Below are positions 12,697-31,646 of a stretch of 54,737 nt of DNA, one piece after another. The DNA comes from Bacteroidota bacterium (GTDB lineage: Bacteria; Bacteroidota; Bacteroidia; Bacteroidales; VadinHA17), in NCBI GenBank assembly GCA_018262715.1, contig JADFDS010000014.1:1-54737 (forward strand), in the 5' to 3' direction. The position numbers and the translations under genes were made by a program. Position 1 is the stretch's first letter, and each line of letters begins with the position of its first letter. Below the pieces are notes generated by a model that did no database searches, was not told where the DNA came from, and saw only the letters and a list, made by a program, of their open reading frames with translations.

Positions 12697-12753
12697 ATGC
12701 ACCACACATCACTATTTATTGCCCTGATTATTCTCATCGCCATAAGCGGATGA
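12697..12753 (+). CDS. ilv-leu operon leader peptide (Ile/Leu-rich)
   Basis: An 18-codon frame reading MHHTSLFIALIILIAISG, with five Ile and three Leu codons clustered at codons 6-16 and no Val. It begins about 19 bases after the promoter box and ends with a stop codon directly in front of the antiterminator arm at 12754-12761. Size, composition and position are those of an attenuation leader. A ribosome slowed at the Ile/Leu codons would leave the arm free, whereas a ribosome reaching the stop would cover it. Confidence 0.85.
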   Translation: MHHTSLFIALIILIAISG

Positions 12754-12821
12754 CCGGGGAGTAGTATATAGTGAGGATAATAATATCTGAAAGCTTCCCG
12801 GAAAACCGGGGAGCTTTTTTT
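12754..12821 (+). terminator. ilv-leu attenuator: terminator with competing antiterminator arm
   Basis: Terminator stem of 12 pairs (12790-12801 with 12806-12817, one T-G wobble), an AAAA loop and a T tract at 12815-12821. The segment CCGGGGAG at 12754-12761 is an exact copy of the terminator's 3' arm (12806-12813). It can therefore pair with the 5' arm CTTCCCGG (12794-12801) and abolish the terminator. ilvD starts 19 bases after the T tract. Confidence 0.88.
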
Positions 12822-12839: not shown

Positions 12840-14666
12840 ATGAAAAAAGAACTGAGAAGCCTGCAGACAATGAGCGGAAGGACGATGGCCGGCGCCAGGA
12901 GCCTCTGGCGTGCAAACGGCATGAAGGAGGAACACTTCGGCAGGCCGGTGATAGCTGTCGTCAACTCATTCTCGCAGTTCGTGCCGGGACATGTGCACCT
13001 GCAGCAGGCCGGCAGCGTGATCAGGGAAGAGCTTTCCCGCCGGGGACTTTTTGCGGCAGAGTTTAACACCATTGCCATTGATGACGGCATAGCCATGGGG
13101 CACGGTGGAATGCTCTACTCTCTCCCCTCCCGCGACCTTATTGCTGACAGCGTGGAGTACGTCTGCAACGCCCACCGTGCTGATGCCATGATCTGCGTCA
13201 GCAACTGTGACAAGATCACTCCAGGCATGCTGATGGCCGCCATGAGACTGAATATTCCGGCAGTGTTCGTTTCGGGCGGACCGATGGAGGCGGGCGTTTT
13301 GGGCGGAAGAGCCGTTGACCTGATTGATACAATGGTGGCTGCGGCGGATGACTCCGTTTCCGCGGAAAAGCTTCTCGGACTCGAGAAATCATCATGCCCC
13401 TCCTGCGGATCATGCTCGGGAATGTTCACTGCCAACTCCATGAACTGCCTGACAGAGGCGCTGGGGTTGGCATTGCCGGGTAACGGCACCGTGCTGGCAA
13501 CACACGTTGACAGGATGAAGATGTTCCGGAGGGGAGCGCAGCTGATAGCTGATCTTGCTGAAAGGTACTACAGTGACGGAGATGAAACAGTATTACCCCG
13601 CTCGATAGCCACCAGGGAGGCATTCATGAATGCTATGACCGTTGACATCACCATGGGAGGATCGACAAATACCGTCCTGCATCTCCTGGCCATAGCCCGT
13701 GAGGCCGGGGTTGACTTCACAATGAAGGAGATTGATGCTCTGTCACGCCGTGTTCCGAACATTTGCAGGGTCTCCCCTGCCTCGGGGTATCACGTTGAAG
13801 ATGTCAACCGTGCCGGAGGGGTATTTGCAATAATGGGAGAACTAAACAGGGCGGGATTGCTCGATCCTTCTGTACGCCGGATAGATTATCCGTCACTGGA
13901 TGCGGCGCTGGCCGGCTGGGATATTCTGAGCCCGGTCGTTTTGCCGGAAGCACACGATCTCTTTCTCTCCGCTCCCGACAGGTCAGCCGGTCCCCGGCCA
14001 TTCGCCTCTGAAGCCAGGTACGGCTCTCATGACACTGACAGGGTCACCGGAGCGATAAGGGATACAGGTCATGCATACAGCAATGACGGAGGCCTGGCGG
14101 TTCTTTACGGAAACCTGGCTCCGGACGGATGCATGGTGAAGACGGCAGCCATTGACAGCTCAATAATGCGATTCAGCGGACCGGCAGTGGTTTTTGACTC
14201 CCAGGAGGATGCTGTGGCCGGCATTCTCGGAGGCAGGGTAAGGGAGGGTGATGTCGTGGTGATCCGTTACGAGGGGCCCCGCGGCGGCCCGGGGATGCAG
14301 GAGATGCTGTACCCCACATCATATCTCAGGTCTAAAGGTCTTGACCGCCGGTGTGCCCTCATCACTGACGGCCGCTTCTCAGGCGGGTCAGCAGGGCTTT
14401 CGGCCGGTCACATCTCCCCCGAGGCCGCCGCCGGAGGAACAATAGCCCTGGTGTGCAATGGCGACAGGATAATGATTGACATACCTGCCAGAACCATCAG
14501 GCTGGCTGTGGATGATACGGTCCTTGAGACAAGACGCAGGGCAGAGAGAGCCAGGGGAGCCGCGGCATTCACACCGGAGAACAGGGTCCGCACGGTTTCA
14601 GGCGCACTGAAGGTTTATGCGGCCCACGTCAGCTCGGCAGACCGGGGTGCCATACGGGAGATATAA
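12840..14666 (+). CDS. ilvD: Dihydroxy-acid dehydratase IlvD
   Basis: Iron-sulfur enzyme of valine and isoleucine synthesis, dehydrating 2,3-dihydroxy-3-methylbutanoate and its homologue to 2-oxo acids. It shows the cluster-ligand Cys of [10 protein letters not shown] and [19 protein letters not shown], the GNGT loop, [11 protein letters not shown], and the C-terminal [15 protein letters not shown] and DGRFSGG(S). The ATG at 12840 gives 608 residues beginning [11 protein letters not shown]. The longer open frame from 12771 would run through the attenuator hairpin and is rejected. First structural gene of the ilv-leu operon. Confidence 0.96.
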
Positions 14667-23223: not shown

Positions 23224-24286
23224 GATAGCGCTTCTTCCGGGAGATGGCATAGGTCCGGAAGTGATTGAGCAGGCAGTCAGGGTGTTGAATGTCACCGGTG
23301 AGGTTACCGGCCACACCTTCAGCTTCACTGAAGGGATGGTGGGGGCTGTGGCCATCGACCATACCGGAAATCCCTTCCCTGATGAGACCCTTCACCTGTG
23401 CCGCAGGTCAGATGCTATCCTCTTCGGCGCCATCGGCCACCCCAGATATGATAATGACCCTTCTGCAAAGGTAAGGCCGGAGCAGGGTCTGCTGAGGATG
23501 AGGAGTGAGCTGGGACTCTATGCCAATGTAAGGCCCGTGAAGAGTATACCCGGGATGGCAGGCATTTCACCGCTGAAGGAGGAGATAGTGGCAGGGACCG
23601 ATATTGTGATGATACGTGAACTGACTGGCGGCATTTACTTCGGTAAACCACGGGGCCGTTCTGAAGACGGACTGACCGCATTTGACACCTGCACCTACAG
23701 CAGGTATGAGGTGGAGCGTGTGGTGCACCTGGGTTGCAGGTATGCCGTCCAACGAAGGAAGAAAGTGACTGTGGTTGACAAGGCTAATGTGCTTGCTACA
23801 TCTCGTCTCTGGCGCGAAACAGCAAAGGAGATTGTTGCTGAATACCCTGAGATTGAAATGGAATTCATGTTCGTTGACAATGCTGCAATGCAGATAATCA
23901 GGAACCCGTCAGCATTTGATGTCATAGTTACCGAGAACATGTTCGGAGACATTCTCTCTGATGAGGCGAGTGTGATCACCGGATCGCTCGGAATGCTGCC
24001 GTCTGCATCAATAGGGCTGTCTGCCTCTCTCTATGAGCCAATCCATGGCTCGTTTCCGCAGGCGGCAGGAAAAAATACAGCCAACCCCGTGGGAACGATA
24101 CTATCCGCTGCAATGATGCTCGAACTTAGCTTCGGCCTTGTGAAGGAAGCAGGACTGATCACCAGGGCGGTGGAGGAGACGATAAGGGAAGGGGTGGTAA
24201 CCCCGGATCTGAGTCATGATAATCCTGTTACAACCACAGCGATGGGGCAGAGGATCTGTGAACAGGTTAAGGCGCTTTCACGTTAA
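23213..24286 (+). CDS. leuB: 3-isopropylmalate dehydrogenase LeuB
   Basis: NAD-dependent beta-decarboxylating dehydrogenase completing the leucine-specific steps and, with cimA, probably the citramalate branch. The 357 residues show LLPGDGIGPEVIEQAV, LRMRSELGLYANVRPV, ELTGGIYFGKPRG, VDNAAMQII, NMFGDILSDEAS and EPIHGSFPQAAGK. The last gene of the operon; its start is inside the end of cimA. Confidence 0.96.
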   Translation: MNYKIALLPGDGIGPEVIEQAVRVLNVTGEVTGHTFSFTEGMVGAVAIDHTGNPFPDETLHLCRRSDAILFGAIGHPRYDNDPSAKVRPEQGLLRMRSELGLYANVRPVKSIPGMAGISPLKEEIVAGTDIVMIRELTGGIYFGKPRGRSEDGLTAFDTCTYSRYEVERVVHLGCRYAVQRRKKVTVVDKANVLATSRLWRETAKEIVAEYPEIEMEFMFVDNAAMQIIRNPSAFDVIVTENMFGDILSDEASVITGSLGMLPSASIGLSASLYEPIHGSFPQAAGKNTANPVGTILSAAMMLELSFGLVKEAGLITRAVEETIREGVVTPDLSHDNPVTTTAMGQRICEQVKALSR

Positions 24287-24347: not shown

Positions 24348-24377
24348 CAGTTTCCGGCAGGAGATTCAATAAATAAG

Positions 24378-24385
24378 TATATTTG
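24378..24385 (+). promoter_or_regulatory. Promoter of the his operon, TATATTTG box
   Basis: Exact TAnnTTTG match followed by C, ending 17 bases before the leader ATG, the same distance as in the ilv and trp leaders. No clear TTTG element is seen at the -33 distance. Confidence 0.55.
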
Positions 24386-24401
24386 CACCGGACAATTGAC
24401 A

Positions 24402-24461
24402 ATGAACACAAACAGGATACATCACCATCATCATCATCATACTTGCTCTCAGGCGAGATGA
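24402..24461 (+). CDS. his operon leader peptide (seven consecutive His)
   Basis: A 19-codon frame, MNTNRIHHHHHHHTCSQAR, with seven His codons in a row (24420-24440). This is the classic composition of a histidine-operon attenuation leader, as in enterobacterial hisL, but in a different phylum and with unrelated flanking residues. Its last codons (TCT CAG GCG) contain the antiterminator arm at 24449-24455, so a ribosome that passes the His codons masks it. Confidence 0.93.
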   Translation: MNTNRIHHHHHHHTCSQAR

Positions 24462-24523
24462 AAATGGTGTGTGGTGAAAACTGAATATCATAAACCCGTC
24501 TGAGCAGATCAGGCGGGTTTTTT
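24449..24523 (+). terminator. his attenuator: terminator with competing antiterminator arm
   Basis: Terminator stem of 12 pairs with one T-G wobble (24492-24503 with 24509-24520), loop GCAGA, and a run of six T at 24518-24523. The segment TCAGGCG at 24449-24455 repeats the terminator's 3' arm (24509-24515) and can pair with CGTCTGA in the 5' arm (24497-24503). Ribosome stalling on the His codons would expose it and allow read-through into hisG. Confidence 0.88.
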
Positions 24524-24563
24524 GTTGCTCCGTGGTTTGCTCAGGCATAAGACAAAATGCGGA

Positions 24564-25421
24564 ATGAGCATACTGAAGATAGCAATCCAGAAAAGCGGGA
24601 GACTGAGTGAGAGCTCCCGGAAACTCTTTGACGAATGCGGGATAAGGATCAGCAACGGCGCAGGAACCCTTAAAGTGGTTGCTGGTAACTTCCCGGCAGA
24701 GATACTCCTCCTCCGCGATGACGATATCCCTCAGTACGTTGAACAGCAGGTGGCTGACATAGGCATCGTTGGGGAGAATATAGTCCTCGAGAAGCAGAGG
24801 GAGGTGGATATCCTTGAACAGCTTGGCTTCGGCGGATGCCGACTCTCCCTTGCAATACCTAAAGAGGATAATTACACCGGTCCGGGCTATTTCATGAACA
24901 AAAGGGTGGCAACAAGCTATCCGTCACTGCTAACCGGATATTTCAGATCACGGAACATCAGAGCTGAGATAGAGGAACTCAGCGGCAGTGTGGAGATAGC
25001 TCCCGGCATCGGGCTGGCTGACGGTATATGTGACATCGTCAGTTCGGGAAGCACGCTGCTGACAAACGGCCTGAAGGAGGTGGAGACAGTCATGAAGAGC
25101 CAGGCAGTTATCATTGCCAACCGGAACATCAGCGGCCAGAAGAGGGAGATACTTGAAAAGCTGCTCTTCCGCATCAGGGCTGTGAAAAACGCCAGTGAAA
25201 ACAAATACATACTCCTCAATGCCCCGGAAGCAGCAGTACCGGAGATATGCAGAATTCTTCCCGGGATGAAAAGCCCCACAATACTGCCCCTGGCAGAGAA
25301 GGGATGGTGCAGCCTCCACTCCGTTGTCAGGGAGGATGAGTTCTGGGAAAGGATAGACCGCCTGAGATCTGCCGGAGCTGAAGGGATACTTGTAATACCC
25401 ATCGAAAAAATGATTGTGTGA
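24564..25421 (+). CDS. hisG: ATP phosphoribosyltransferase HisG (long form)
   Basis: First committed step of histidine synthesis, joining ATP and PRPP. The ATG at 24564 (MSILKIAIQKSGRLSESS) gives 285 residues; the open frame upstream runs into the attenuator. Catalytic domain features include DIGIVGENIVLE, GLADGICDIVSSGSTLLTNGLKEVE and the PRPP-binding region. The C-terminal 75 residues form the HisG_C ACT-like domain for histidine feedback, marking the long form that needs no HisZ. The stop overlaps the hisD start by one base. Confidence 0.95.
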   Translation: MSILKIAIQKSGRLSESSRKLFDECGIRISNGAGTLKVVAGNFPAEILLLRDDDIPQYVEQQVADIGIVGENIVLEKQREVDILEQLGFGGCRLSLAIPKEDNYTGPGYFMNKRVATSYPSLLTGYFRSRNIRAEIEELSGSVEIAPGIGLADGICDIVSSGSTLLTNGLKEVETVMKSQAVIIANRNISGQKREILEKLLFRIRAVKNASENKYILLNAPEAAVPEICRILPGMKSPTILPLAEKGWCSLHSVVREDEFWERIDRLRSAGAEGILVIPIEKMIV

Positions 25422-26806
25422 TGAGAATATTGCTATACCCCGGTGCCGCTGAGCTGGCGGCAGCCCTGGCACGACCCTCGGATGGTAACAGGGAGATTGA
25501 CATGAAGGTCAGGGAGATACTCTCAGCAGTTATGAATGGTGGAGATGCTGCGCTCAGGAAGTACTCGGAAAAACTTGACGGCTTTGCGGCAGCCTCCCTG
25601 AGGGTTGAAGCTGACGAGATTGAGCAGGCAGAATGTGAGGTCAGCCCTGCCCTGAAAAAGGCGATCCTGTCAGCTGCCTCAAATATTGAGAAATTCCACC
25701 TTGCAGGTGCCGGAACTGCCAGGATTACACGGACCGCCCCGGAGGCTAAGCGGACCACTCCGGAGGTCACTGGTTCCACTCCGGAGGTCACCCCCACCGC
25801 CCCGGAGATCATCGAGACTGCTCCCGGTGTCCGTTGCTGGTATCGCGACTTACCCATAGAAAAAGTAGGACTATATATCCCGGGAGGAACCGCTCCCCTG
25901 TTCTCCACTGTACTGATGCTTGGTATCCCGGCCCGGCTGGCAGGGTGCGGGGAGATAGTCATGTGCACGCCACCCGGAAGGGACGGTAAAATCAATCCTC
26001 TGATACTGTATGCGGCAAAGGTTGCCGGAGTGAAAGCCGTCTTCCGTGCCGGCGGTGCCCAGGCAATAGCTGCCATGGCTTATGGTACGGAATCAATCCC
26101 GGCTGTTTACAAGATCTTCGGGCCCGGTAACCGGTTTGTCACCCGCGCCAAGGAGATTGTGCAGCTCGAGGGCAGCGCCATCGACATGCCAGCCGGGCCG
26201 AGCGAACTGATGGTCATTGCAGGCAGCAACGCCAATCCCGCCTTTATTGCGGCAGACCTCCTCTCCCAGGCTGAACACGGCACCGACAGCCAGGTGATAA
26301 TGCTCACTTACAGCCGCGAGATGATAACCCTCGTGGAGAAGGAGACAGAACGCCAGCTTGCACTCCTGCCGCGGAAAGACATTGCTGCCAGGTCGCTCGG
26401 AAACAGCTCCCTGGTACTCCTTGAATCAGAGGAAAAATGCCTGGAGGCAGCCAACCTTTACGCACCTGAACACCTGATAATTGCCACCCCTGACCCGATC
26501 CGGACATCAGAACGGGTGACCAGCGCAGGCTCGGTGTTCCTGGGCAACTACAGCAGCGAGAGCCCCGGCGACTACATGACGGGACCGAATCATACCCTCC
26601 CGACGGGAGGATTTGCCAGGAGCTTCAGCGGGGTTACCATCGGCAGTTTCATGAAGAGGATCTTCTTCCAGGAAGTGACAGCAGAGGGGATCCGGAACAT
26701 CGGGCCTGACACGGTACTGATGGCAGAGGCAGAGAGGCTCGGTGCACATGCGGCAGCAGTTTCGGTCAGGCTTGATTACCTTGATAAAAACACGCAGAAA
26801 AAGTGA
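25421..26806 (+). CDS. hisD: Histidinol dehydrogenase HisD, with a tandem-repeat insertion
   Basis: Zinc enzyme performing the last two oxidations to histidine. Family motifs: GVRCWYRDLPIEKVGLYIPGGTAPL, RAGGAQAIAAMAYGTESIP, GPGNRFVTRAK, DMPAGPSELMV, SQAEHGTDSQ, and the C-terminal NHTLPTGGFARSFSGV. At 461 residues it is about 30 longer than usual. Five tandem 7-residue units lie at residues 103-137; the last (IETAPGV) is the normal family sequence, the four before it look like diverged duplications. The catalytic core is intact. I chose the ATG at 25421 over the GTG at 25418. Confidence 0.94.
   Translation: MRILLYPGAAELAAALARPSDGNREIDMKVREILSAVMNGGDAALRKYSEKLDGFAAASLRVEADEIEQAECEVSPALKKAILSAASNIEKFHLAGAGTARITRTAPEAKRTTPEVTGSTPEVTPTAPEIIETAPGVRCWYRDLPIEKVGLYIPGGTAPLFSTVLMLGIPARLAGCGEIVMCTPPGRDGKINPLILYAAKVAGVKAVFRAGGAQAIAAMAYGTESIPAVYKIFGPGNRFVTRAKEIVQLEGSAIDMPAGPSELMVIAGSNANPAFIAADLLSQAEHGTDSQVIMLTYSREMITLVEKETERQLALLPRKDIAARSLGNSSLVLLESEEKCLEAANLYAPEHLIIATPDPIRTSERVTSAGSVFLGNYSSESPGDYMTGPNHTLPTGGFARSFSGVTIGSFMKRIFFQEVTAEGIRNIGPDTVLMAEAERLGAHAAAVSVRLDYLDKNTQKK
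25727..25831 (+). repeat. Five tandem 21-base units inside hisD
   Basis: In-frame units at 25727, 25748, 25769, 25790 and 25811 encode TRTAPEA, KRTTPEV, TGSTPEV, TPTAPEI and IETAPGV. The shared core at nucleotide level is CCGGAG preceded by an ACC/ACT-rich half. The last unit corresponds to the conserved HisD sequence just before GVRCW, suggesting expansion by repeated duplication of that segment. Confidence 0.85.
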
Positions 26807-26819
26807 AAATAAGACTGAA

Positions 26820-26888
26820 ATGGTTGAATTACCCGCAAAAGCATTGAAGTCAAAAATCAGACAGCAGAAACCCACCCGGCAGCAGTGA
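26820..26888 (+). CDS. Possible 22-residue small ORF between hisD and hisC
   Basis: A short frame starting ATG at 26820 and ending TGA at 26886-26888 fills most of the roughly 100-base hisD-hisC gap, the only sizeable gap inside an otherwise overlapping operon. The peptide is basic (Lys/Arg/Gln-rich, starting MVELPAKAL). No family is recognised and it may be chance. Confidence 0.2.
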   Translation: MVELPAKALKSKIRQQKPTRQQ

Positions 26889-26908
26889 AGTATTGATATA
26901 AGACCTTG

Positions 26909-27943
26909 ATGATGAAACGAACAGATAAACTTGTAAGGCCAAACGTTCTTAAGCTTACCCCCTATTTATGCGCAAGGGATGAGTATGAGGGTAGCGAGGG
27001 GATCTTCCTTGACGCAAACGAGAGCCCCTATGGGCCGCTCAACAGATACCCCGATCCGCGCCAGCGTGAACTGCGCGAAACCATCAGCCGGAAAAAGGGA
27101 ATTCCTGCTGAAAATATATTCCTCGGAAATGGCAGTGACGAGATCATAGACCTCTGCTTCCGTATCTTCTGCAACCCCGGAAAGGACAGGGCAATGATCT
27201 TCACCCCCACATACGGCATGTACGGCGTGGCCGCCTCGGTAAATGACATCGGAATTGTCAGGATTCCCCTCGATGACACATTCAATATCGACCTCCAGGC
27301 CGCAAAACCATTGCTGAGGGAAGATACCCTTAAACTTGTCTTTATCTGCTCACCCAACAATCCCACCGGAAACTGCATGAATCCTGAAAAAGTTGAGACC
27401 ATCATCAGGGAACTTAACGGGATAGTGGTTATTGATGAAGCCTATGCCGACTTCAGTGGGAAGCCATCCTTCGCAGAGCGCATTGGCGAATTTGACAATC
27501 TGATAGTGATGCAGACATTCAGCAAGGCGATGGGACTGGCAGCGGCAAGAGTGGGAGTAGCATTTGCCGATGCTGACCTGCTCAGGTATTTCTTTGCCAT
27601 GAAGCCACCCTATAACATCAGCACCATCAACCAGGAGGCCGCGCTCCTGAGGCTGAACGAGGCCGATGCTGTGGCCCGGCGTGTACAGTCGATAATCACA
27701 GAGCGTGAAAAACTTGCCTCACGACTAACTGCGCTTCCCGTAGTGGAGAAGGTCTGGCCTTCTGATTCAAACTTCCTGCTTGTAAGGGTAAAGGATGCAG
27801 ACTATATATACAATACCCTTGCTGAGAGGAAAATCATAGTCAGAAACCGGAACCGTGAGATCCCCGGATGCATCCGGATCACCACCGGCACGCCGGAAGA
27901 AAACGAAAAACTGATAAGCGAACTTGAAAGTTTAAGTATATGA
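26909..27943 (+). CDS. hisC: Histidinol-phosphate aminotransferase HisC
   Basis: PLP aminotransferase converting imidazole-acetol phosphate to histidinol phosphate. The 344 residues show LDANESPYGP, GNGSDEIIDLC, FICSPNNPTGN, VVIDEAYADFSG and the PLP lysine in QTFSKAMGLAAARVG. ATG codons at 26909 and 26912 follow a TTG at 26906; the first ATG is taken as start. The stop overlaps the hisB start by four bases. Confidence 0.95.
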   Translation: MMKRTDKLVRPNVLKLTPYLCARDEYEGSEGIFLDANESPYGPLNRYPDPRQRELRETISRKKGIPAENIFLGNGSDEIIDLCFRIFCNPGKDRAMIFTPTYGMYGVAASVNDIGIVRIPLDDTFNIDLQAAKPLLREDTLKLVFICSPNNPTGNCMNPEKVETIIRELNGIVVIDEAYADFSGKPSFAERIGEFDNLIVMQTFSKAMGLAAARVGVAFADADLLRYFFAMKPPYNISTINQEAALLRLNEADAVARRVQSIITEREKLASRLTALPVVEKVWPSDSNFLLVRVKDADYIYNTLAERKIIVRNRNREIPGCIRITTGTPEENEKLISELESLSI

Positions 27944-29028
27944 AAAAGGTATTGTTTATAGACCGCGATGGCACCATCCTGAAGGAGCCGGAAGATGAAC
28001 AGGTCGACAGCCTGGAAAAACTGGAATTCATGCCGGGGGTGATAGGAGCTCTCTCAGCCATCTCCCGGGAGACCGGCTTCGAACTGGTGATGGTTACAAA
28101 CCAGGATGGTCTTGGTACCCCCGCATATCCAGAGGAGGCTTTCCTTCCGCCGCAGAACAAGATGCTCAGCATCCTTGCCGGAGAAGGGGTGAGATTTGCA
28201 GAGATATTCATTGACCGGTCATTTGAGTCTGACAGAACTCCCACCCGTAAACCGGGTACGGCAATGCTGACCAGGTATCTTGCAGACGGAGTCGACCTCG
28301 GCTCTTCCTTCGTGATCGGTGACCGCCTCACAGACATAGAACTGGCAAAAAACCTCGGCTGCCGGGTCATTTATGTCAGTGACAGGCAGAACGGGGAGGC
28401 TTCGCTCTGCACCCGCGACTGGCAGGAGATAAGACGCTTCCTGACCGGGATCCCAAGAAGGGCGTCAGTTTCAAGGGAAACAAATGAGACCGGCATTTCC
28501 ATTGAGATTGACCTCGACGGTACCGGGAAAGGCTCTATCAGCACCGGTATCGGCTTCTTCGACCATATGCTTGAGCAGGTTGCCAGGCACGCCGGCATTG
28601 ACATTACACTGAAGGCTTCCGGCGACCTTCATGTTGATGAGCACCACCTGGTTGAGGATACAGCCATCGTACTCGGACAGGCTCTTGACCGGGCACTCGG
28701 GAAAAGGAAAGGAATGGCGCGGTACGGCTTTGCACTGCCAATGGATGACTCTGCTGCAGAAGTACTGATTGACCTGGGGGGAAGGCCCTGGCTTGAATGG
28801 AACGCCTCATTCCGGTCAGACCGTGCAGGCACCCTCTCAACGGATATGTTCCGACACTTCTTCAGGTCACTGAGTGACAACGCAAAATGCAATATTCATG
28901 TCAGAGCCACAGGTGATAATGACCATCATAAGGCAGAGGCAATCTTCAAGGCATTCGCCAGGGCACTGGGAATGGCTGTGGTAAAAACAGGCAGCGGAAA
29001 CCTGCCATCAACCAAGGGAACATTATGA
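27940..29028 (+). CDS. hisB: Bifunctional histidinol-phosphatase / imidazoleglycerol-phosphate dehydratase HisB
   Basis: Fused two-step enzyme. N-terminal HAD phosphatase domain (about residues 1-165) with the nucleophile motif FIDRDGTIL, VTNQDGLGTP, RKPGTAM and VIGDRLTDIE. The C-terminal dehydratase domain (about 175-362) has the metal-binding HHLVEDTAI and DNDHHKAEAIFKAFARALG. Total length of 362 residues equals E. coli HisB. Overlaps hisC and hisH by four bases on either side. Confidence 0.96.
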   Translation: MKKVLFIDRDGTILKEPEDEQVDSLEKLEFMPGVIGALSAISRETGFELVMVTNQDGLGTPAYPEEAFLPPQNKMLSILAGEGVRFAEIFIDRSFESDRTPTRKPGTAMLTRYLADGVDLGSSFVIGDRLTDIELAKNLGCRVIYVSDRQNGEASLCTRDWQEIRRFLTGIPRRASVSRETNETGISIEIDLDGTGKGSISTGIGFFDHMLEQVARHAGIDITLKASGDLHVDEHHLVEDTAIVLGQALDRALGKRKGMARYGFALPMDDSAAEVLIDLGGRPWLEWNASFRSDRAGTLSTDMFRHFFRSLSDNAKCNIHVRATGDNDHHKAEAIFKAFARALGMAVVKTGSGNLPSTKGTL

Positions 29029-29606
29029 TAGCAATACTTAAGTACAATTCCGGCAATACAATGTCTGTACAGGTGGCCCTGCGGAGGCTGGGGCATGATT
29101 CTGTGGTTACATCCGATCCTGAAATACTGCTGAAGTCTGACAGGGTGATAATTCCCGGTGTGGGTGAAGCACGTTCGGCAATGAGCCACCTCAGGGAAAG
29201 GGACCTCGATTCGCTGATCCTGTCCCTGAAACAGCCGGTGCTGGGAATTTGCCTGGGCCTGCAGCTGATGTGCTCCCGCTCAGAGGAGAATAATACTGAA
29301 TGTCTGGGCATCTTTGACGCCGTTGTCAGGAGATTTCCTCCGGAGGAAAGGGTGCCGCATATTGGATGGAACAACTTTGAGAGCCTCTCCTCCTCCCCGC
29401 TGCTGAAAGGCCTTGAGCCGGACGATGACCTCTATTATGTGCACAGCTACTATGCCGAGCTGAACAGTGACACAAAAGCTGTTTGCAGGTACATCCTCCC
29501 CTTTTCGGCGGCAATGCAGCGCGATAACTTCCATGCGGTGCAGTTTCACCCTGAAAAATCAGCAGAGGCAGGAGACCGGCTGCTTATAAACTTCCTTGAG
29601 CTATGA
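29025..29606 (+). CDS. hisH: Imidazole glycerol phosphate synthase glutaminase subunit HisH
   Basis: Class I glutamine amidotransferase that feeds ammonia to HisF. The nucleophile is Cys76 in GICLGLQLM and the His/Glu pair is in FHPEKSAEAG near the C terminus. 193 residues, normal. Overlaps hisB and hisA by four bases each, typical of tight translational coupling. Confidence 0.95.
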   Translation: MIAILKYNSGNTMSVQVALRRLGHDSVVTSDPEILLKSDRVIIPGVGEARSAMSHLRERDLDSLILSLKQPVLGICLGLQLMCSRSEENNTECLGIFDAVVRRFPPEERVPHIGWNNFESLSSSPLLKGLEPDDDLYYVHSYYAELNSDTKAVCRYILPFSAAMQRDNFHAVQFHPEKSAEAGDRLLINFLEL

Positions 29607-30316
29607 GAATCATCGCGGCAATAGACATCATTGACGGTCAATGCGTCAGGCTGACCCAGGGCGACTTCGGCAGAAAGACACTTTACCGTGCTGATCCCGT
29701 TGACCTTGCAAGGGAGATGGAAGATAACGGCATCAGGTACCTTCACCTGGTTGACCTTGACGGGGCCCGTACCGGAAGAATAACAAACCAAAGGGTACTT
29801 GAAGGAATAGCTTCTGCCACCGGACTGGAAATCGACTTCAGCGGCGGCATACGAACAGAGGAGGATATCCTCCTGGCCTTCAGCAGCGGCGCTGCACAGG
29901 TAACCATTGGCAGCATTGCGGTCCACCGTCCTGACCTGCTCAGGCAATGGCTCGGTCAGTACGGGCCTGAAAAAATCATCCTGGGAGCGGATTTCAGGGA
30001 AAGAAAGGTAGCTACAGGAGGCTGGCAGGAGACATCCGGGAGAGACATTGCCGATTTCCTCAGGGAATACAGGCTGGCAGGGATTCGCTATGCACTCTGC
30101 ACCGATATCTCAAAAGACGGAATGCTAACCGGGGTCTCCGCGGAGATATACAGGGAACTGACCTCGCTGGAAGGACTGGCTGTGATTGCCAGCGGCGGAA
30201 TTACTGCTGTCAGTGATCTCAGAGAGCTGCGTGATGCCGGGTGTGAAGGGGCCGTAACGGGGAAGGCCCTGCTCGAGGGAAGGATAACATACAACGAAAT
30301 TGCTGAGATATGCTGA
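29603..30316 (+). CDS. hisA: Phosphoribosylformimino-AICAR-P isomerase HisA
   Basis: Beta/alpha-barrel isomerase opening the ribose ring of ProFAR. Shows AAIDIIDGQCVRLTQGDF with the first catalytic Asp, DLDGARTGR, IDFSGGIRTEED, the second Asp in CTDISKDGMLTG, and VIASGGITAVSDL. 237 residues. Overlaps hisH by four and hisF by seven bases. Confidence 0.95.
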   Translation: MRIIAAIDIIDGQCVRLTQGDFGRKTLYRADPVDLAREMEDNGIRYLHLVDLDGARTGRITNQRVLEGIASATGLEIDFSGGIRTEEDILLAFSSGAAQVTIGSIAVHRPDLLRQWLGQYGPEKIILGADFRERKVATGGWQETSGRDIADFLREYRLAGIRYALCTDISKDGMLTGVSAEIYRELTSLEGLAVIASGGITAVSDLRELRDAGCEGAVTGKALLEGRITYNEIAEIC

Positions 30317-31065
30317 AAAAGAGAATCATACCCTGCCTTGACATTAAGGACGGACGCACAGTAAAAGGGATCAGTTTCGTCAACCTCCGTGATGCAGGTG
30401 ACCCTGTGGAGCTGGCACGTGCCTATGCTGAACAGTCGGCTGACGAGCTGGTTTTCCTTGATATATCGGCAACTGATGAACGGCGGAAGACCCTAGCCCC
30501 TCTGGTAAAAAAGATAGCAGAGGCAATAAACATCCCCTTCACGGTGGGGGGTGGCATCACCACCCGGGAGGATGTCTCGATGCTGATCAGATCGGGGGCT
30601 GATAAGGTCTCCGTCAATACTGCCGCGATACTTAACCCGCCCCTCATTGCCGAACTGGCAGATGAGTACGGCAGCCAGTGCGTGGTGGTGGCAATTGACG
30701 CTAAACTTGTTGATGGCACATGGGTGGTCTGCACCCACGGAGGCAAGCGCGTCACAACACTTCCGGCCATCACCTGGGCCCGTGAGTCGGAACGGCTCGG
30801 CGCCGGCGAGATCCTCCTCACCTCCGTCAACCGCGACGGATCCGGCGAGGGATTCTCACTTGACATAACGTCGGCAGTATGCAACTGCGTGAATATCCCG
30901 GTGATCGCATCAGGAGGCGCAGGCTCACCTGAACACTTCAGGGAGGTGTTCGCAGAGACTGGCTGCACGGCAGCACTGGCTGCCACACTATTTCATTACG
31001 GGATAATAAAGATTCCTGAACTGAAAAAATATCTTTTACATAATAACATTGACATAAGATGCTGA
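30310..31065 (+). CDS. hisF: Imidazole glycerol phosphate synthase cyclase subunit HisF
   Basis: Beta/alpha-barrel cyclase that uses ammonia from HisH to form imidazole glycerol phosphate and AICAR. Catalytic Asp in IPCLDIKDGRTVKG at residue 11, PFTVGGGITTREDV, DKVSVNTAA, the second catalytic Asp in SVNRDGSGEG, and VIASGGAGSPEHF. 251 residues. Overlaps hisA and hisIE. Confidence 0.96.
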   Translation: MLKKRIIPCLDIKDGRTVKGISFVNLRDAGDPVELARAYAEQSADELVFLDISATDERRKTLAPLVKKIAEAINIPFTVGGGITTREDVSMLIRSGADKVSVNTAAILNPPLIAELADEYGSQCVVVAIDAKLVDGTWVVCTHGGKRVTTLPAITWARESERLGAGEILLTSVNRDGSGEGFSLDITSAVCNCVNIPVIASGGAGSPEHFREVFAETGCTAALAATLFHYGIIKIPELKKYLLHNNIDIRC

Positions 31066-31646
31066 ACATGGACTTCAATAAGGGTGACAGGCTGGTGCCC
31101 GTCGTGATACAGGACAACACCACCCTGCAGGTGCTGATGGCGGGTTACATGAATGAGGAAGCGTACCGCAAAACGGAAGATGAGGGGCTTGTGACCTTCT
31201 ACAGCCGCAGCCGGCAATCGCTCTGGACCAAGGGTGAGACCTCGGGAAATTACCTGAGGGTGGTGACAATTGAAACTGACTGCGACAGTGATACAATCCT
31301 GATAAAGGCCGAACCGGCCGGTCCCGTATGCCACACCGGCACATGGTCATGCTTCGGGGAACAATCGGCAAAAGGATTTATCTACCGGCTTGAAGATATC
31401 ATCAACAGCAGGATTGAAGAGGACAGCAGCGGGTCATATACCAGCAGGCTCTTCAATGAGGGAACCGGTAAGATTGCCCAGAAAGTGGGCGAGGAAGCGG
31501 TTGAACTGGTTATTGAAGCTATGGGTGACAATATCGGCCTCTTTAAAAACGAGGCGGCGGACCTTCTCTATCACCTGCTCATTCTGCTCAGGGCTAAACA
31601 GGTCAATCTCTCTGAAATAGAGGAAGTGCTGCTCTCACGACATTAA
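31059..31646 (+). CDS. hisI: Bifunctional phosphoribosyl-AMP cyclohydrolase / phosphoribosyl-ATP pyrophosphatase HisIE
   Basis: Fusion catalysing steps two and three of the pathway. N-terminal cyclohydrolase (about residues 1-105) with MAGYMNEEAY, SLWTKGETSGN, the zinc/metal-binding DCDSDTILI and CHTGTWSC. The C-terminal HisE helical domain (about 110-195) has KVGEEAVELVIEA and ADLLYHLLILL. 195 residues, standard. Last his gene, overlapping hisF by seven bases; no convincing terminator hairpin follows before the trp leader. Confidence 0.95.
   Translation: MLNMDFNKGDRLVPVVIQDNTTLQVLMAGYMNEEAYRKTEDEGLVTFYSRSRQSLWTKGETSGNYLRVVTIETDCDSDTILIKAEPAGPVCHTGTWSCFGEQSAKGFIYRLEDIINSRIEEDSSGSYTSRLFNEGTGKIAQKVGEEAVELVIEAMGDNIGLFKNEAADLLYHLLILLRAKQVNLSEIEEVLLSRH

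Follow-up and report, generated by a model that had tools for sequence, protein, structure and literature searches.

The window is the whole stretch of DNA that was analysed, 54,737 nucleotides of contig JADFDS010000014.1 from a Bacteroidota bacterium, and it contains a his operon, hisGDCBHAFIE, running from 24564 to 31646 with hisG first. The hisG gene occupies 24564-25421, with its ATG at 24564, and is identified by a match to NCBIfam TIGR00070. The hisD, hisC, hisB and hisIE genes were also tested against profiles, and hisH, hisA and hisF were named by their own sequence and by gene order. The leuB gene ends at 24286, upstream of the hisG leader region. Unless stated otherwise, the features between the two genes described below lie on the plus strand. 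A TAnnTTTG box, TATATTTG, is found at 24378-24385 and fits the consensus given for the sigma-A -7 element of Bacteroidota (PMC9723704). It is followed by a leader peptide ORF of 19 codons, MNTNRIHHHHHHHTCSQAR, from the ATG at 24402 to the TGA at 24461, which is kept in relatives and contains seven consecutive His codons (CAT CAC CAT CAT CAT CAT CAT, 24420-24440).

An intrinsic terminator lies between this ORF and hisG. The terminator scan places it at 24492-24520, with a stem of 12 pairs, a loop of 5 bases and a run of T. We designate its 5' arm (24492-24503) together with the loop GCAGA (24504-24508) strand C (24492-24508), and its 3' arm (24509-24520) with the T run to 24523 strand D (24509-24523). 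Within the end of the leader ORF lies strand B, CTCAGGCG (24448-24455), assigned as the antiterminator arm from the B:C comparison. It includes TCAGGCG at 24449-24455, which repeats exactly the seven bases that open the terminator 3' arm (24509-24515), and B is therefore able to pair with C. In the minimum free energy fold of the ribosome-free RNA, strand A', TGGTGTGTGGTG (24465-24476), pairs with part of the His-codon run and encloses B. The leader fold of the window beats all of 200 dinucleotide shuffles, with z = -4.47. The leader with its seven His codons (24402-24461), the repeat in its tail and the 12-pair terminator with T run ahead of hisG (24492-24523) had all been named in the original prediction, and each is present as described. 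Read in the opposite direction, the His run falls in a short ORF (24366-24440, minus strand) with six Met in eight codons, which is probably a by-product.

A further strand, E, TTTGCTCAGGC, is located at 24536-24546, between the terminator and hisG. Its partner is 24498-24508, that is the upper 5' arm of the terminator and the loop, as indicated by C:E covariation and by a duplex test. The original prediction had placed the element at 24378 to 24523. The start, at the TAnnTTTG box, stands; the end falls short of strand E, which was overlooked and is part of the same device as the leader and the terminator.

We compared the regions upstream of hisG in three sets of genomes. In the window's own family HisG matches were present in 37 of 59 genomes, giving 30 loci. 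From named species genomes the best 80 of 560 matches were taken (L031-L110), so that the sample is biased to near relatives. In a sample of the phylum HisG was matched in 252 of 296 genomes; the upstream regions of 110 were examined, and among the other genomes many have a distant HisG. The 219 loci reduce to 208 distinct upstream regions, of which 205 were tested and three were dropped as shorter than 200 nt. A leader was scored where an ORF of 8-45 codons has at least three His within eight codons. By this rule 187 of the 205 regions carry a His-codon leader before hisG, compared with 69 of 2050 dinucleotide shuffles; on requiring at least four His the numbers become 164 of 205 and 5 of 2050. 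Thus a His leader before hisG is the rule among the Bacteroidota sampled. The remaining 18 regions lack a leader under the rule used, and one locus (L006) was scored as leaderless solely because of a run of N in its leader. This comparison of hisG upstream regions, which the original prediction had proposed as a check, favours conserved His codons and an alternative stem.

The leaders take several forms. Sorted by crude patterns, 120 of the 205 have the terminator type of the window (type i, core GUCUGAG or near), 20 have the core GGCUUACC, and 65 have another or none, although the second type lost some of its members (L118, L120) to the last heading. In 103 of 119 type-i loci the TAnnTTTG box lies at most 60 nt ahead of the leader ATG; shuffles would give about 9.6. 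The second type of terminator, with the core GGCUUACC or near it, occurs at L115, L118, L126, L127, L139, L142, L149 and others, where the leader tails read GGUAGGC, GGUAAGC, GGUGAGC or GGUGGGC and the logic, judged by eye, appears the same. Two loci of the window's own family (L022, L023) have a His leader followed by a quite different terminator, GUUUGCAG...CUGCAGACC, and the duplex test gave no significant B or E pairing in either. A His-rich leader ORF with no terminator that the eye can make out precedes hisG at L180-L185, L196, L201, L203, L208, L213, L216 and L219; several of these, such as L183, L201, L208 and L219, come from the group of 65. The spacer of these loci looks G-poor, and they are possibly under Rho-dependent or translational control. 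Since hisG usually has a His leader in the Bacteroidota sampled, and in several forms, the phylum lends itself to testing how attenuators are rebuilt.

We aligned 117 of the 119 type-i leaders, excluding L076 and L105 for their long spans. The terminator pairing C:D is found in 91.9% of 1403 cells, the antiterminator pairing B:C in 92.9% of 936, and the small hairpin around B in 87.1% of 583. For all three, and for C:E, both the fraction of cells paired and the covariation score lie above 500 of 500 shuffles and above all slid controls. The count of pairs changed on both sides is less discriminating for the first three helices. It is 3 of 12 for C:D, no better than shuffles (329 of 500 reach it); 3 of 8 for B:C, little better than shuffles (69 of 500); and 4 of 5 for the B hairpin, where one slid control (+3) exceeds it. 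RNAalifold run on the alignment returned just five B:C pairs at -1.47 kcal/mol, and is of little use for competing helices. The duplex test was applied to single sequences, at those 114 of 128 distinct loci where a terminator could be located and, for E, at 113 of the 114. For strand B of the window 3 of 50 shuffles do equally well, and in 65 of the 114 loci no more than 1 of 50 does.

B:C and C:D are mutually exclusive, as expected of an attenuator. We examined how a ribosome on the leader ORF would affect the choice between them, taking an assumed value for the ribosome footprint. With the ribosome halted on the first His codon, B lies outside the footprint in all 117 leaders, and with the ribosome at the stop codon B lies inside it, again in all 117. 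When nascent RNA extending to the terminator loop is folded, B:C has a probability above 0.5 in 110 of 117 leaders if the ribosome is stalled at the first His, in none if it is at the stop, and in 38 of 117 if there is no ribosome. The corresponding probabilities for the window are 0.99, 0 and 1e-5. Because 38 leaders form B:C with no ribosome present, a ribosome-free off state is not general. Folded at equilibrium the switch is invisible: even with a stalled ribosome C:D has a probability above 0.5 in 112 of 117 leaders. Antitermination would thus depend on the order and timing of folding. Timing is essential in known attenuators.

The locus therefore combines a leader ORF with a His run, an intrinsic terminator, an exclusive antiterminator and, on the assumed footprint, an arm gated by the ribosome. 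Very probably the element is a ribosome-mediated transcription attenuator of the his operon. This was the reading of the original prediction, and it accords with the retention of the His run in the relatives, the pairing of B:C and C:D and the geometry of the ribosome, all of them properties of the compared sequences. The comparison supports the leader, the terminator, the antiterminator and the pairing of E; the response to histidine, the kinetic order and the role of E we infer. When histidine is plentiful the leader ribosome would reach the stop codon and cover B, whereupon C would pair with D and transcription would stop short of hisG. With charged tRNA-His scarce, the ribosome would stall on the His codons, opening the hairpin between these codons and A'. 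B would be left free, B:C could form before D is made, and the polymerase would read on into hisGDCBHAFIE. In the window, absence of a ribosome would leave the hairpin of His codons and A' to hide B, and the terminator would form.

That the His run and the repeats are due to chance, or serve a DNA-binding regulator of hisG, is very hard to believe, because although the 18 regions scored as leaderless and two loci (L211, L212), which lack a His leader upstream of hisG and have a short frame that by eye resembles the end of a HisR/TrpR-type repressor, would fit such an origin, the frequency of leaders, the covariation and the strand bias described below speak against it, and shuffles fail to reproduce them.

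Judged from the aligned sequences, strand E has the strongest covariation of the four helices counted. In the window the E duplex has an energy of -18.8 kcal/mol, which none of 100 shuffles equals. Across the 113 loci tested no more than 1 of 100 shuffles does as well in 60, and no more than 5 of 100 in 71. In the 117 leaders C:E is paired in 88.8% of 1260 cells, compared with 18-41% for slid controls, and 11 of 12 pairs, with 120 cells, have changed on both sides. The covariation score is 0.302, against 0.171 +/- 0.007 in shuffles, and none of 500 shuffles reaches any of five measures. At the loop pair 131-205 all six standard pair types occur. On a tree of HisG, double changes that keep pairs number about 22 for C:E, 12 for C:D and 6 for B:C, with 2-5 for slid controls; the same tree has 75 breaking changes in C:E. 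All four strands (B, C, D, E) often change in concert at alignment column 122, where GCGG is found in 54 of 117 leaders and ATAA in 15, the rest being mixed or gapped. At least 8 of 11 C:E pairs are kept in 97 of the 117 leaders, with fewer in the other 20.

We considered whether E could be a signal in the antisense strand. C:E contains 98 G.U pairs where 142 are expected and 18 A.C where 69 are expected (61 shuffles). The far stronger depletion of A.C indicates that the pairing strand is the sense RNA, and the antisense reading was rejected.

Strand E is found well beyond the window's family. No more than 1 of 100 shuffles matches it in, among others, Flavobacterium rivuli (L096), F. beibuense (L088), Kaistella montana (L097), Epilithonimonas hominis (L068), Paenimyroides aquimaris (L070), Seramator thermalis (L093), a Cytophagales MAG (L065) and a Chitinophagales MAG (L084); F. 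antarcticum (L082) has a weaker E, with 7 of 100 shuffles as good. Among 13 testable his leaders with a GGCUUACC-like terminator, E was matched by 5 or fewer of 100 shuffles in none, and L128 was too short. E is missing too from several sister loci (among them L010, L045, L050, L055, L056 and L062), drawn from the window's family and from named Bacteroidales and Bacteroidetes MAGs, and there the terminator itself ends 16-21 nt before the AUG. Other leaders lacking E have longer spans, up to 90 nt.

What might E do? The polymerase is already clear of the U tract when E is made, and so E could not alter that termination event. In a read-through mRNA it could pair with C from the terminator loop downwards, displacing D or B. 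Its action would follow the decision to terminate, at the 5' edge of the region where ribosomes bind hisG. E thus probably has a post-transcriptional role, perhaps at the initiation of hisG translation. Its pairing is a clear structural signal, and one for which the standard picture of competing leader segments has no explanation.

One possibility, which we regard as doubtful, is a switch at two levels, where C:E, or a pseudoknot between E and the terminator loop, limits hisG translation unless B holds C. In the 97 leaders E lies a median of 16 nt from the hisG AUG (5-95% 14-27, mean 17.7 +/- 4.5) and a median of 18 from the terminator (5-95% 14-37). The distance to the AUG is thus the less variable (Levene p 0.001), as this role would suggest, although the 15.5 +/- 2.5 obtained earlier on 71 loci pre-selected for E softened on these 97 aligned loci. 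Bacteroidota genomes have no general Shine-Dalgarno sequence, and in Prevotella bryantii structure of -11.1 kcal/mol in the stretch of the ribosome-binding site lowers protein about 140-fold; a hairpin placed at -21, near where C:E ends, is not inhibitory, giving 1.34 of the control (PMC3155529). Moreover, C:D usually beats C:E in energy, which would leave E free; C:E is the more stable in just 13 of 71 loci, and in pseudoknot-free folds of the full length with the hisG start C:D forms in most loci while C:E exceeds a probability of 0.5 in 10-14 of 117. Nor might B be able to hold C against E, since among the 71 loci passing the duplex test for E there are 52 where C is bound more tightly by E than by B. 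The sister loci without E count against this switch as well.

The tighter binding of E would suit a different role, as a latch. E would invade C by way of the loop after read-through and dissolve the terminator hairpin, protecting or exposing the mRNA. It comprises a B-like core and a complement to the loop, and should be able to displace both B and D. If this were so, transcripts that had escaped termination would be used well. Against this, E emerges only once the polymerase is past the U tract, C:D is usually the more stable end state, and we are aware of no harm that a terminator hairpin would do within an mRNA. We regard the latch as doubtful too, to about the same degree as the switch at two levels.

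It is improbable that the terminated leader acts in trans on the E strands of other hisG mRNAs. There is an analogy in Sinorhizobium, where attenuator RNA acts in trans, and the partner of E is exactly the terminator loop; but every read-through mRNA has its own loop in cis. The genome's only other two exact matches to a 12-base E pattern fall within open frames, one of 584 codons and one of 235, and E as a family of trans targets was rejected on that ground.

Returning to the attenuator with its fourth strand, we might have a his attenuator class on the scale of the phylum in which E couples the terminator loop to the start region of hisG, a generalization that we consider doubtful. If it were true, a single RNA would respond to the supply of histidine by controlling first the transcription of the mRNA and then its translation.

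Leader-peptide attenuation is taught mainly from Proteobacteria, and the leader peptide of the E. coli his operon has seven His codons. Like the enterobacterial his attenuator (RF00514), the element has a run of His codons in a short leader and exclusive antiterminator and terminator, and lies directly before hisG. It differs in that B is inside the leader ORF and within the hairpin of His codons and A', and in having strand E after the terminator. The Rfam His_leader model RF00514 scores the element at 31.8 bits (E 0.0019), below its gathering score of 49. Searched at gathering scores, neither the window nor 16 related loci contain any Rfam family, T-box and RF01692 included; loose scores give this weak His_leader match and eight lower ones. 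Bacteroid-trp (RF01692), which we take to be a trp leader, has no match in the window. It shares with the present element that it is a cis-regulatory RNA of Bacteroidota, and is so listed in a table of PMC2864571. The leader peptides of hisZ and hisS in Bacilli are likewise His-codon leaders with a terminator outside Proteobacteria, but they belong to other genes and another phylum, and the passages describing them mention no E strand (PMC2965389). According to that survey, published in 2010, leader-peptide systems had been known only in Proteobacteria and Actinobacteria until its own Bacillus cases.

That such an element exists has been partly published. A transcriptome of Flavobacterium psychrophilum published in 2021 lists hisG among conserved structured 5' elements of Flavobacteriaceae that have no Rfam hits, and finds strong indications that amino-acid operons in general are attenuated through leader peptides encoded upstream (PMC9723704). 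That element is very likely the same as the one described here; the passages on it give no mechanism, structure, codon analysis, E strand or range beyond the family. It is the single paper on a hisG 5' element in the literature we searched, in line with the statement of the original prediction that his attenuators of Bacteroidota are little documented. The openly licensed literature searched yielded no description of E; it did not extend to a proteobacterial survey of 2004 (Vitreschak) and a survey of 2010 (Lopatovskaya), of which the latter especially might cover Bacteroidota.

A second attenuator is visible in the window before ilvD. The whole region spans 12697-12818. It begins with a leader, MHHTSLFIALIILIAISG and its stop codon (12697-12753), followed by ACCGGGGAG (12753-12761), which copies part of the 3' arm of a 13-pair terminator (12789-12818). 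The ilvD ATG is at 12840, and a similar leader precedes ilvD at L224. By eye there is no E strand at the ilvD attenuator of the window or of L224, and from these and the 13 GGCUUACC-like his leaders above, E as a general feature of the attenuators examined was rejected.
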